Shown: positions 47,546-64,000 of the stretch, in pieces
How the letters are laid out: each line of letters begins with the position of its first letter
How positions within the stretch are numbered: position 1 is the first letter of the stretch
Assembly: GCA_024998815.1 (NCBI GenBank)
Contig: JACEUQ010000002.1
Location: 1,192,501 to 1,256,500 of the forward strand
Direction: 5' to 3'
Length of the DNA: 64,000 nucleotides
Origin: Opitutus sp.
Lineage (GTDB): Bacteria > Verrucomicrobiota > Verrucomicrobiia > Opitutales > Opitutaceae
Program-made: the position numbers and the translations under genes
Notes under the pieces: generated by a model
Databases searched by the model: none
What the model was told of the DNA's origin: nothing
Seen by the model: only the letters and a program-made list of their open reading frames with translations

Positions 47546-47557
47546 ATGGCGGTTTAC

Positions 47558-47590
47558 AAAGGCCTGCCGAATCGGCAGGCCTTTTTTGTG
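47558..47590. terminator. Host bidirectional terminator, split by the prophage
   Basis: The stem GGCCTGCCGA and its complement is followed by six T residues on the plus strand. The minus-strand U-run is now cut from six to three by the insertion. In the empty site it would have served tRNA-Pro from the left and the TPR-like gene from the right. 47559-47562 is the right copy of the AAGG target duplication. Confidence 0.85.
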
Positions 47591-59749: not shown

Positions 59750-61030
59750 ATGCCTGCCGACCTCGTCCAACTCGTCACCTCCATTGCCCAGCGCGCCCGC
59801 GCCGCCTCGCTCGTGCTCGCCACGACCCCGTCGGCGCGCAAAGACGCCGCGCTCCTGCGCCTCGCCGAGCTCATCCCAGCCTCCGCCGACGCGCTCCTCG
59901 CCGCAAACGCTCTCGATCTGGCCGAGGCCCGCGCCAACCAGCTCCCCGCCCAACAGCTCGACCGACTCACACTTACGCCTGCCCGACTCGACCACCTCGC
60001 CGAATCCGTGCGCCAGGTCGCCGCGCTCACCGACCCGGTCGGCACCGTGCTTGAAGAGTGGACACGCCCCAACGGCATCCAAATTCGCAAGCGCCGCGTG
60101 CCCATCGGCGTGATCGGCATCATCTACGAGGCGCGTCCCAACGTGACCATCGACTGCGCCATCCTCTGCCTGAAGTCGGGCAACGCCGCCATCCTGCGCG
60201 GGGGCAAAGAGATTATCCACACCAACACCGCCTTCGCCGCGCTCATCACGCAGGCGCTCGCCGAAACCGGCCTGCCCGCCGAGGCCGTGCAACTCATCCC
60301 CACCACCGACCGGTCGGCCCTCAACACGTTGCTCAAACTCGACACGCTGGTGCACTGCATCATCCCACGCGGCGGCGAGAGCCTGATCCGCTTCGTCGCG
60401 CAGAACAGCACCATTCCGGTCATCAAACACTACACGGGTGTGTGTTTTGTATACGCCGACCTAGACGCCGATCCGTCCATCGCGGAAGCCATTCTGATTA
60501 ACGCCAAAACCCAGCGCCCCGGCGTGTGCAACGCCGCCGAACAACTGCTTGTTCACGCCGCCGCCGCGCCCACGCTCCTTCCCCGCCTCGCCGCGGCGCT
60601 ATTGGCCAAAGGCGTGCAACTTCGCGTCGATCCTGCCGCCGCCGCCATTTTGGCCGGCGCATCGCCCGCCATCGCCCACTCCGCCGCCACCGAAGCTGAT
60701 TACACCGCCGAGTTCCTCGATCTGATTATGGCGGTGCGCATCGTGCCCGACTTAGAGACTGCCATTGCCACCATCAATCGCGACAGTTCTGGCCACACCG
60801 AGGCGATCATCACACAAAACGAGGCGACGGCACGCCGCTTTCAGGATGCGGTCGACAGCGCCGTGGTGACCTGGAATGCCAGCACGCGCTTCAACGACGG
60901 CTTTGAGTTTGGTTTCGGCGCGGAGATCGGCATCAGCACCGACCGCCTGCACGCCCGCGGCCCGATGGGGTTAAACGAACTCTGCACCTACAAATACGTG
61001 ATCGATGGTACGGGCCAGGTGCGGGCCTAA
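59750..61030 (+). CDS. proA: Glutamate-5-semialdehyde dehydrogenase
   Basis: ProA reduces glutamyl-5-phosphate to glutamate-5-semialdehyde in proline synthesis. The 426-residue protein has the family segments [49 protein letters not shown], the catalytic Cys in [19 protein letters not shown], and the C-terminal [22 protein letters not shown]. The longer frame from 59534 overlaps the kinase gene; ATG 59750 gives the usual length. proB is not in the window. Confidence 0.94.
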
Positions 61031-61075
61031 GCCAGCTTCGCAAGGCGTGGACGCTGTCGGGCGTGCCTGCCTTCC

Positions 61076-63577
61076 TCAGCGCCGCCAGGCCCCGCGCATG
61101 CCCCAGCCCACCATGGCCAAGGTGGCTAGCGAGCTGGCCGGCATCAGAATTGCAGCAACGAGCGGGTTCATATGCCCGGACACCGCCATGCCTACGGCAA
61201 ACAGATTGTAGGCGATCATAAACACCAACAACGCCACCTGGGTGCGGTGCCGCGCGTCGTTAATCTCAAACAACGCGCGGATACCGGCGATACCGCGCCC
61301 GAGATAATAAAAGTCCGCCCTCTGCTCCAGCACGCCGCGGTGCACCACCGGCGTACCCCGACACAGCGCCTGGTCGAATGCCAGGCTATCGTTGGCCCCG
61401 TCACCCAGCATCAGCGCATCATCGTGCGCAGCGAACCACGCGGCCTTCTGCTGAGGGGTAAGTTCGGCGTAACCATTTGCCTCGGGCAGCCCCAACTCGC
61501 GCATCAGCGCGGCGACTTTTTCACGGCGATCACCACTTAAAACCACGATCTGCAACCCGCGCCGGGCGAGTGCGTCCAGTTCCCCGCGGGCGTCGGCCCG
61601 CGCTGTATCCGCAAACGCAAACCGCGCCACCACCCGCCCCTCTCGAGCCAACACCACTTCCCCACCCCCACGCGCCAACACCCTATCGCCACCAGTCCCA
61701 CCGCCCTCCACCGCTAAACCCAAAGTGTCACCTATTAGGTGACACTTTGGGTTTCCACCTTCGAAGTTAACCGTTTGCACGTTGGCTGCGGTGCGCCACT
61801 CGGGGCGACCTAAAGTCCAGTCGCCGAGGAGGACTCCTTGGCCGACCGTCTCGATCACTTCACCGACCAACGCTTCGCCGCCTCCACGAGCCAGTAGCGC
61901 TTCGTGCAACGAGCAGCTCACCGGATGCGGGTTGTCGCGCACCAGTCCCAACAACGCCGCCCGCGCCTCGGCGTCCAGGCCAGCAAGCATCTCGGGATTT
62001 TGCAGAACAGGATTCTCCAGGGTGAGCGTACCGGTCTTGTCGAAAACCACGGTGCGCACCCGGCGCAACCTTGGCCACAGGTCCGCCGCACGCACAAACA
62101 CCCCGCGCTTCCGCAATGACACCGTCGCCACTTCTTCGGCCAGAGGGTAAGCCAGTCCCAGTGCACACGGGCACGACACCACCAGGATCGCCGTCACCAC
62201 CGCTCCGGCATGCAACCAATCACCGGTCGCCCATGCCCAGAAAAAACCCGCCAAGACAGCCACGGCGAGCACCGCGACCAAATAACACCGAATCACTGTC
62301 TCGATCAGCTTATGCCGATAATCCGCGCGTGGCATCGGCTTGATTAACTCCGCCAGGAGCGACTTTTCCCAACCTTGGGTCGCCACCAACTGAATACTGT
62401 TGCGCCCGATATTTTGCGCGCCCGCCGCCACCCGTTGCCCCGCGCGAAATCCGCGCGGCTCGGCCTCGCCATTGATCCACGCCAGGCTGAGCACTGCTTC
62501 GGCCGTCTCCAAACGCGCCTCAACCGGAACCATGCGGCCCATCGCCACCTCAAAGCGTTGCCCCTCGCGCAAAGTCTCCGGCGCCACCTCGCGCACCACT
62601 CCCTCGGCGGTGATTAACCGTACCCGGGGGGCGGTCGGCTGGCGACTGAGCAGACGGCGGCGGTTACGCTCCACAGCCACAACCTGCGCCCAGCGCCCCA
62701 CCAGCATCAGCACGATGAACGCGCTCACAAAATCGAAATACACGTAGAGCTCATCGCCCTTCAGCCAGCCATAGAGCGAACCAGCGTAGGAGCCGATGAT
62801 GCCCAGCGCGATGGGCAGGTCGATGTGCAGCACACGCTCGTGCAGCGCCCGCAACGCCCTCGACACAAAGTACCCGCCACCGGCCAGTAAACTGAGCGTG
62901 GCAAAGGCCAGCTGCAGCGTGGCGAACAGACCGGCGTACTCGTCGGTGCTCGCCATGCCGAAATAGGCCGGCAGGGCGAAAAGCATCACGTTCATCGCAA
63001 AGGCCGTACAGAGGCCCACCCGCCGGATGAGCACGCGGCTCTCGGCGTGCTCGGCATCGATCACCCCCGCCGCCCCGACCAGGTAGTTAAACCGCTGGAG
63101 TTCCCGCGCGCACTCAACCGCGTCAAAATCTCCTTTGGACCAAGTCCAACGCATCTGCCCGGTTTGCGCATTGACCTCGATCCGCCCCGCTCCGGGTTGC
63201 TTCGAAAATACCTTTTCGATCAGCCACACACAGCCGGCGCAGGAGATACCCTGCACTTCGAGCACGAGACTGGGCGTGCGGCCGTTGGTCGCGTTGGTAT
63301 CAGCCTCCTGCTGCGCCTCAGACAGCCATGAGTAGTCGCGCGGTTGCAGCAGCGAAGTGTCGGCGGGTGTGGTCACCTCGTCCTTGATTTTGTAATACGC
63401 ATCCAGCCCAGCCTCGTGGACGAGTCGGTAAACATAGGCGCAGCCCGCGCAGCAAAACTCCCCTTGAGGCGAGGGCGCGCCGCAATGACGGCATGTCGGC
63501 TTGGCCTTGGCTGACGAAGCGACCGGGGCTGACTTCGCTCTTGGGACATTAGCCTCAATGGGGGTGTTTAATTGCAT
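61076..63577 (-). CDS. ccoI: Copper P1B-type ATPase, CcoI/FixI-like
   Basis: The 833-residue pump has an N-terminal Cys-rich metal region (CRHCGAPSPQGEFCCAGC), a heavy-metal-associated domain with SCAGCVW, eight membrane segments, the metal channel motif SCPCAL, the phosphorylation site DKTGTLTLENP and the hinge LGDGANDSLAF. This order with the CxxC ... CCxGC start matches FixI/CcoI, which delivers copper to cbb3 oxidase. Start ATG 63577 is used because the upstream frame overlaps the next gene. Inside the nucleotide domain is a 39-bp palindrome (see separate entry). Confidence 0.9.
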   Translation of the reverse strand: MQLNTPIEANVPRAKSAPVASSAKAKPTCRHCGAPSPQGEFCCAGCAYVYRLVHEAGLDAYYKIKDEVTTPADTSLLQPRDYSWLSEAQQEADTNATNGRTPSLVLEVQGISCAGCVWLIEKVFSKQPGAGRIEVNAQTGQMRWTWSKGDFDAVECARELQRFNYLVGAAGVIDAEHAESRVLIRRVGLCTAFAMNVMLFALPAYFGMASTDEYAGLFATLQLAFATLSLLAGGGYFVSRALRALHERVLHIDLPIALGIIGSYAGSLYGWLKGDELYVYFDFVSAFIVLMLVGRWAQVVAVERNRRRLLSRQPTAPRVRLITAEGVVREVAPETLREGQRFEVAMGRMVPVEARLETAEAVLSLAWINGEAEPRGFRAGQRVAAGAQNIGRNSIQLVATQGWEKSLLAELIKPMPRADYRHKLIETVIRCYLVAVLAVAVLAGFFWAWATGDWLHAGAVVTAILVVSCPCALGLAYPLAEEVATVSLRKRGVFVRAADLWPRLRRVRTVVFDKTGTLTLENPVLQNPEMLAGLDAEARAALLGLVRDNPHPVSCSLHEALLARGGGEALVGEVIETVGQGVLLGDWTLGRPEWRTAANVQTVNFEGGNPKCHLIGDTLGLAVEGGGTGGDRVLARGGGEVVLAREGRVVARFAFADTARADARGELDALARRGLQIVVLSGDRREKVAALMRELGLPEANGYAELTPQQKAAWFAAHDDALMLGDGANDSLAFDQALCRGTPVVHRGVLEQRADFYYLGRGIAGIRALFEINDARHRTQVALLVFMIAYNLFAVGMAVSGHMNPLVAAILMPASSLATLAMVGWGMRGAWRR
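61716..61754. repeat. Perfect palindrome inside the ccoI reading frame
   Basis: Arms of 19 bp around a single central base are exact complements (AAACCCAAAGTGTC ... and its mirror). They code for NPKCHLIGDTLGL in the ATPase nucleotide domain. The surrounding stretch of about 40 residues (from NVQTVNFEGG to GGDRVLARGG) is longer than in typical FixI proteins, as if a mobile palindromic element had been inserted in frame. Confidence 0.85.
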
Positions 63578-64000
63578 AAGAAACCTCCTGGCGCGCGGCT
63601 CAGGCGCCACGTGATGACCAACGCAGTTAACAGGGCGAGACCGGCCTGAAGGCGTGCCAGCCAGACGGGCGATAGTTTCAGGCGGAGGCGGCCGTAGTTG
63701 GCCTGAACGATCCACAGGAGCGGTACGGTGCCCAGGCCGAAGGCCAGCATGAACTCCGCGCCGCGAAGCGCCGTTCCACTGAACGCACTAATCGCCAGCA
63801 GGAAATAAAGCGGGCCGCAGGGCAGCAGCGGGGTGGCAAATCCCATGACAGCGGCCACGCGCAGGCGGGAGCGGCCGCGGAGCGCCGCCTGCAAGCGCCA
63901 TTGCAGCCGAGTCAGCGCTGCGAAACGGGGGAAGTGTTTTTCAAGTCGAAGTCCGACTACCACGAAAAACAGCACGAGGGTCCACGGCAGCAGTAGCAGG
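63568..64000 (-). CDS. TauE/SafE-type membrane protein, partial
   Basis: The C-terminal 143 residues are visible; the frame runs on past the window edge. It has membrane segments VAAVMGFATPLLPCGPLYFLL, FMLAFGLGTVPLLWIV and a last one near LALLTALVITW. The LLPCGPLY motif is the signature of the SafE/UreH-like (DsbD-related) permeases that occur directly beside ccoI/fixI, e.g. CcoS/CcoH-neighbour copper proteins. It overlaps the ccoI start by 10 bp, so the two are co-translated. Confidence 0.85.
   Translation of the reverse strand, partial: LLLLPWTLVLFFVVVGLRLEKHFPRFAALTRLQWRLQAALRGRSRLRVAAVMGFATPLLPCGPLYFLLAISAFSGTALRGAEFMLAFGLGTVPLLWIVQANYGRLRLKLSPVWLARLQAGLALLTALVITWRLSRAPGGFLCN

Follow-up and report, generated by a model that had tools for sequence, protein, structure and literature searches.

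An in-frame palindrome in an Opitutus ATPase gene belongs to a dispersed family associated with genes for predicted helix-turn-helix proteins

Proteins of ParB/Noc/SlmA-type systems have tens of palindromic chromosomal sites, some of which lie in genes. For the palindromic elements of Rickettsia (RPEs), we know of no partner gene that is flanked by the element. According to the extract of PMC3733652, RPEs are palindromes inserted in frame into host genes that stay functional, and the same extract records intragenic in-frame copies of REP elements in Opitutus terrae.

The palindromes described here share features with each of these systems, the nearest known kind being REP/RAYT, which they match in copy number and from which they depart in tag and transposase. 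As in REP/RAYT systems (REPtrons), short palindromes occurred in tens of copies and formed several families in a genome, each linked with a repeat-flanked gene, whereas the partner in the present case was a predicted helix-turn-helix protein in which no nuclease domain was found, the palindrome had a symmetric core without a GTAG tag and with little sequence information beyond it, and orthologous sites changed core type. In common with RPEs, intragenic copies were in frame (61 of 166, in one frame) and the 14 further host genes tested all had Pfam domains, but RPEs are longer or CGTC-tagged according to the extract of PMC3733652. The predicted fold of the partner and the presence of palindromes at gene ends recall XRE/Cro regulators and their operators, from which the present family differs in having tens of sites per genome, many of them as insertions inside genes. 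Compared with ParB/Noc/SlmA, the partner is of another protein family and the sites are insertions with type switching. The open-licence literature, from which most subscription papers are missing, was searched for such a helix-turn-helix partner and for palindromes in Opitutaceae and contained no description of the partnership.

The ATPase palindrome and its dispersed copies

The window, i.e., the whole stretch of 64,000 nucleotides that was analysed, contained a perfect palindrome (Table 1) with 19-nt arms at 61716-61734 and 61736-61754 that were 100% complementary and 1 nt apart. In the preliminary description this was called an almost perfect mirror sequence; the palindrome was confirmed, but the sequence is an inverted rather than a mirror repeat. 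A random sequence of 64 kb is expected to contain about 2e-7 exact palindromes of this kind; the next-longest perfect odd-centred palindrome in the window had arms of only 13 bp. The latter (AAAGGCCTGCCGAATCGGCAGGCCTTT, 47557-47584) was followed by a T run and is an ordinary terminator by appearance. An arm of the ATPase palindrome may resemble the SP6 promoter, in which case we take the resemblance to be due to chance. A reading of the region as an RNA element was dropped, as no RNA family match was found in Rfam, up to an E-value of 1, across 60900-62600.

The palindrome lies in a minus-strand open reading frame that spans 61076-63715, for which the in-house gene caller chose 63577 as the likelier start. 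Its in-frame translation (N-P-K-C-H-L-I-G-D-T-L-G-L) forms part of an extra loop, as the preliminary description had noted, and this loop was variable or absent among relatives. The orthologues of other genera that were compared lacked the peptide, which speaks against a loop that distant homologues conserve through different codons. The host protein, previously labelled a copper ATPase, was identified by Pfam as a heavy-metal P-type ATPase, and its specificity for copper is only probable because matches to the NCBIfam copper and heavy-metal subfamily models were below cut-offs.

Table 1. Positions of features in the window and at the partner locus, and core types of the genus
Feature	Position	Strand	Remark
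Perfect 39-bp palindrome	61716..61754	.	19-bp arms and 1-bp spacer
Type A core, 23 bp	61724..61746	.	AGTGTCACCTA-T-TAGGTGACACT; common to the dispersed family
Left outer arm	61716..61723	.	variable among copies; weak consensus CCAACCCAA
Right outer arm	61747..61754	.	complementary to left outer arm
P1B-type heavy-metal ATPase gene (copper probable)	61076..63577	-	palindrome in frame inside
Partner gene (predicted helix-turn-helix protein)	G000:C2:531639-531965	-	outside the window
Type A core			AGTGTCACCTA + reverse complement; genus
Type B core			TTTGT[CA]ACTTA + reverse complement; genus
Type C core			A[AG]AGTAACCTA + reverse complement; genus
Type D core			TGTTCGTA + reverse complement; genus
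Type E core, imperfect			ACAAC[TC]AAC... + reverse complement; genus

Many short matches to the palindrome were found by DNA search of the source genome (G000; 3 contigs, 4.24 Mb in total). A 29-bp palindrome pattern with up to 3 mismatches occurred at 42 places and the 23-bp core (AGTGTCACCTA-N-TAGGTGACACT) with up to 1 mismatch at 60 places, compared with 0 places for the reversed-pattern control in each case. A dispersed, high-copy short palindrome of the sort that marks REP/RAYT systems was therefore present (60 copies versus 0 in the control). With up to 1 mismatch, the core was present in 11 of 56 genomes, i.e., G000, 8 of the 12 other genomes of the genus (1-17 copies each) and 2 of 23 genomes from other genera of the family (6 copies in G030 and 5 in G033), and was absent from 20 genomes of other families of the order. 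An exact core scan of 84,980 species genomes, which may omit records near G000, gave 52 stretches, each with a title that named an Opitutaceae, Opitutus, Opitutae/Opitutia, Rariglobus or Verrucomicrobia MAG. The palindrome family is thus limited to this lineage. Among 61 copies in the stretches fetched from G000, the core was near-invariant and information dropped sharply outside it.

Intragenic copies accounted for 23 of 61 in G000, 31 of 83 in named loci and 7 of 22 in G010, or 61 of 166 in total, the remaining 105 being intergenic; these counts rest on gene calls from a simple in-house hexamer model, not on annotation. All 61 intragenic copies were read in one frame, as C-[HNR]-[LP]-[ILM]-[GS]-[DY]-[TKI]. 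Since the other frames contain stops, selection against truncation would be expected to produce this restriction to a single frame. Genes were under-represented among copy sites, given a coding density of 85% by the same hexamer caller. Besides the ATPase, all 14 host genes of G000 that were tested had Pfam domains. Four of the copies lay between domains (in NnrE/NnrD, HPPK-PabB, urea carboxylase and allophanate hydrolase) and the rest lay at termini or within domains. Shorter orthologues were also noted. Thus, at an M32 peptidase site the G007 orthologue was 60 bp shorter, and at a methyltransferase site, where G000 holds two palindromes, the orthologues of G007 and G012 were 66 bp shorter; the flanks of such sites were too variable for reading a target-site duplication. 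These findings show that palindromes entered genes as in-frame insertions, and the earlier likening of the ATPase palindrome to elements that invade coding genes in frame was borne out by the 60 genome copies, the single frame of the 23 intragenic copies among 61 in G000 and the shorter orthologues.

Tandem palindrome arrays with a 90-bp period were noted at L017 3044-3314, where four copies lay in frame in an AcrB-like gene, and at L033 3060-3241, where three copies were intergenic. Doublets and a triplet that mixed types A and B, 56-59 bp apart, were seen at L059 (5432/5489), L076 (159/215/272) and L096 (3309/3368). Doublet spacings of 45-46, 56-59, 66 and 78 bp appeared to be helically phased when all 28 distances were used (0 of 3000 random sets) but less so with the 14 distinct spacings (175 of 3000 random sets), and phasing is not claimed, as the 28 distances repeat homologous doublets.

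Partner genes and palindrome types

Clustering of the proteins encoded near palindrome copies gave, as the top family, a protein of approximately 115 amino acids at 8 loci in 8 genomes, the gene for which always lay between two palindromes 416-444 bp apart. The best Pfam match of this protein was YdaS (E 0.007, below cut-off) and the best PHROGs match had an E-value of 0.03, while no NCBIfam family matched and no nuclease domain was found by domain searches. A structure model based on 29 sequences (mean pLDDT 77.9) had five helices with a helix-turn-helix at residues 69-90, and XRE-like proteins ranked first in a Foldseek search with this model, none of them at an E-value of 0.001 or better. 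The partner is accordingly described here as a predicted small helix-turn-helix protein, XRE/Cro-like. A reading of the partner as a defence gene was dropped after a PADLOC search with 4 partner proteins gave no match. Similarly, an origin from plasmids or phages was left unsupported by tblastn with one partner protein, which found no match in either.

A profile built from the 8 seed loci detected 29 genes, which were spread over 18 of the 56 genomes. Of the 13 genomes in the genus 10 had such a gene, as did 8 of the 23 from other genera of the family and none of the 20 from other families of the order. A second profile, applied to 387 genomes across the phylum, found the partner gene in 18 of the 37 listed members of the family, other genera included, and gave one weak match (E 1e-8) in another family in what was a shallow first look at the 350-odd genomes outside the family. 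When genomes were compared in pairs, the locus of the partner gene was shared in 15 of 15 pairs for type B, 3 of 3 for type D and 1 of 1 for type E, but in 3 of 10 for type A and 0 of 6 for type C. These counts indicate that the gene is mostly not mobile.

The association of the gene with its own palindrome type was evident from 54 distinct partner genes, 53 of them in the family, after exclusion of 5 new loci with genes that had already been counted. Within about 170 bp of the gene, palindromes with a score of at least 7 were present on both sides in 37 cases and on at least one side in 47 (31 and 41, respectively, of the 48 genes other than the 6 seed genes), while 7 genes, including the only one from outside the family, had no score-7 palindrome on either side. 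The palindromes often lay 13-80 bp before the start, and were also found past the stop. Among 29 genes, upstream and downstream cores agreed at 16.3 of 19 positions within the same gene versus 11.7 of 19 between genes, and among 25 further genes at 13.3 versus 9.4 of 19 positions, values that were reached in 0 of 2000 permutations in either set. Protein identity and core similarity were weakly correlated (Mantel r 0.17, 26 of 2000 permutations, 47 of the 54 genes used). In addition to the types of the genus (Table 1), further core types were noted in other genera of the family.

Copy number followed gene content in the genus. Thus, type-A copies in the 13 genus genomes numbered 60, 12, 7, 17 and 14 where a type-A gene was present versus 8, 0, 0, 0, 1, 0, 1 and 3 where it was not (p 0.003), and type-B copies numbered 27, 62, 23, 53, 64 and 47 with the type-B gene versus 0, 0, 5, 1, 0, 0 and 0 without it (p 0.001). 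The exceptions were G001 (77% complete), which has 8 type-A copies and no type-A gene that was found, G010, with one A-like site and no A gene found, and two genomes from outside the genus that gave no partner gene match, namely G030 with 6 and G033 with 5 type-A-like palindromes.

Orthologous sites across the genus

Anchors beside the copies of G000 were located in its relatives, and 27 loci of G000, including the ATPase, had a counterpart in the sister genome G012, 18 of which were seen by eye to hold a palindrome or relic. These 18 sites were then examined in seven genomes, so that the 18 of 18 for G012 is by construction. Palindromes better than 95% of shuffles were found at 13 of 18 sites in G012, 10 of 16 in G008, 10 of 16 in G010, 9 of 15 in G011, 8 of 15 in G003, 2 of 3 in G001 and 1 of 9 in G007, a few of these being unrelated sequences, e.g., that of G007. 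Recognised cores outside G012 numbered 34, and by manual count 31 of these were of the type whose gene is held by that genome; the other three were of type A in G001 (two sites) and A-like in G010 (one site). One A core scored by script was a type-C sequence flanking the type-C gene of that genome. Two sites in G011, which holds a type-E gene, resembled type E.

At the ATPase site, the centre of the palindrome lay at the identical base in G000 and G012 (type A) and in G003, G008 and G010 (type B) and was 3 bp off in G001 (type A), and no palindrome was found in G007, G011, G002 or G004. The peptide at this site was CHLIGDT, CHLISDK, CNLLSDK or CNVLSYK, depending on the species. The element is thus maintained here at the DNA level, while core and peptide differ among species of the genus. 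In the tree of the ATPase, G001 (A) grouped with G003 and G008 (B) with a support of 0.96, the inner nodes being weak. An allophanate hydrolase site had A, B and E-like cores with exactly the same left-flank spacing.

Among 58 site comparisons, 20 were exact on one flank, 19 were within 6 bp and 19 had no match, a split by which change in place is secure at some sites but does not hold generally. The corresponding numbers for the 40 comparisons outside G012 were 9, 14 and 17, some of the unmatched ones being unrelated palindromes. These results show that sites persist while cores change. In G012, where no partner gene was detected, cores departed from type A at an average of 4.3 of 22 positions, compared with 0.5 for these sites in G000. 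The variant cores of G012 possibly reflect decay or a further type; this genome is 93% complete and its partner gene may be unassembled.

Proposed explanation, alternatives and neighbouring repeats

The explanation that we favour, with somewhat better than even confidence in the model as a whole, is that the ATPase palindrome belongs, as a single site, to a dispersed family that arose by insertion and is tied to a dedicated small protein with a predicted helix-turn-helix (XRE/Cro-like). The position of palindromes on either side of the gene and the covariation of core with gene suggest that the partner protein binds the palindrome. It would bind the two half-sites as a dimer and control its own gene through the flanking palindromes, and the scattered copies would serve it as chromosomal binding sites. 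The single frame in genes and the shorter orthologues show entry of the sites as short insertions, retained in genes only where the single open frame could be kept. Once present, sites tend to remain in place across the genus, while the core is re-typed to match a paralogue present in the genome, candidate causes being selection for binding and copying from the resident palindrome.

Among the alternatives, the one that fares best, although we consider it unlikely, is an ordinary regulon in which a transcription factor has many operators, some in genes by chance. Resemblance of the partner to a small XRE/Cro regulator, placement of palindromes just before the start and after the stop, the constant locus of the type-B gene in all 15 genome pairs and one core position in G010 that varies independently on each arm, as in a double-strand binding site, would all be expected of a regulon. 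Operators, on the other hand, are not normally in-frame insertions of 40-66 bp in enzyme loops, nor are perfect palindromes of 39-51 bp common among them, and the large intragenic share (61 of 166 by in-house calls) and the many intergenic copies with no predicted gene within 100 bp also argue against this explanation.

Mobilisation of a REP-type element by a tyrosine transposase (RAYT), with the partner gene as a merely unrelated neighbour, is improbable and was rejected. The short palindrome in tens of copies, the doublets and tandem arrays and the in-frame genic copies are all REP-like, G000 has 5 Y1_Tnp genes, and GTAG REPs with intragenic copies in Opitutus terrae are described in the extract of PMC3733652. 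However, the palindromes lacked a constant GTAG or CGTC tag (28 of 61 copies had one of these tetramers within 45 bp, whereas shuffled flanks would give 41.9), the stretches of 3.2-3.5 kb surrounding the 5 Y1_Tnp genes contained none of the 61 detected core copies, the core is symmetric and palindromes flank the partner gene in most of the 54 cases. The only recurring transposase family beside palindrome copies was that of an IS701-like element, the ends of which differ from the palindrome.

Marginally less probable still is a neutral effect of hairpins, by which template switching or gene conversion would keep palindromes perfect with no protein partner. Pairing of outer arms within copies, after exclusion of 10 duplicated or tandem G000 copies, did exceed that of permuted arms in G000 (0.484 versus 0.390, 0 of 2000 permutations) and, in other genomes, among the type-A copies (0.423 versus 0.380, 25 of 2000), but no excess was seen in G010 (1597 of 2000 permutations as high) or for 9 copies of type B (1996 of 2000 as high). 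Outer-arm covariation is therefore limited to type A, and the sharing of cores by unlinked sites and the gene association are left unexplained by hairpin effects. Selection on the encoded peptide was rejected as highly improbable for, although the C-H-L-I-G-D-T heptapeptide recurs in many proteins, these proteins are unrelated, 105 of 166 copies are intergenic and four peptides occur at the ATPase site alone.

Returning to the dedicated-protein explanation, the whole has the look of a so far undescribed pairing of a protein with scattered DNA addresses that are writable even inside genes. A bolder version, which we put forward as tentative and rather doubtful, is that of a private DNA-address system. 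Genomes of the family would hold up to eight helix-turn-helix paralogues, each owning a palindromic "address" that brackets its gene and, for those types of which copies were counted, is written at tens of chromosomal places, including in-frame positions in enzymes; on a change of repertoire, addresses would be overwritten in place by another type, through selection or through active copying without a classical transposase. If the dedicated-protein explanation is right, a scattered, gene-invading palindrome family is linked to a dedicated DNA-binding protein instead of a transposase. Types A to E and more, the gene losses and the mixed doublets would then provide a natural series on how a protein and tens of sites change specificity together, one that also bears on how very short insertions multiply in bacteria, and the family would be a clear-cut system in which to ask why palindromic elements become established in coding genes.

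Other repeats were noted in G000. A second dispersed hairpin (GTAGCGCAGACTTCCAGTCTGC), by appearance a GTAG-type REP in this genome with its 5 Y1_Tnp genes, was present in the flanks of L177, L180, L184, L192 and L193. The IS701-like element (DDE_5 transposase, ends CTGGAGTTTGGCC) was located at L025 3058-4877, L010 3023-4842, L029 3039-4858 and other G000 loci (L176-L195). A small open reading frame beside its transposase (L025 4517-4828, minus strand), present in 3 element copies, had a weak MazE-like match below cut-off. Direct repeats of 17-43 bp, which are palindromes in their own right and unrelated in sequence, flank the element as well as its short derivatives. For 22 end pairs there were 19 distinct targets, 17 of which had a stem longer than shuffles (p 0.05), and several loci were not resolved. 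Replacement of inverted repeats without duplication is described for IS1272 in the extract of PMC5678879. The IS701-like element seems to duplicate the whole hairpin on insertion, and five of its targets were the type-A palindrome.
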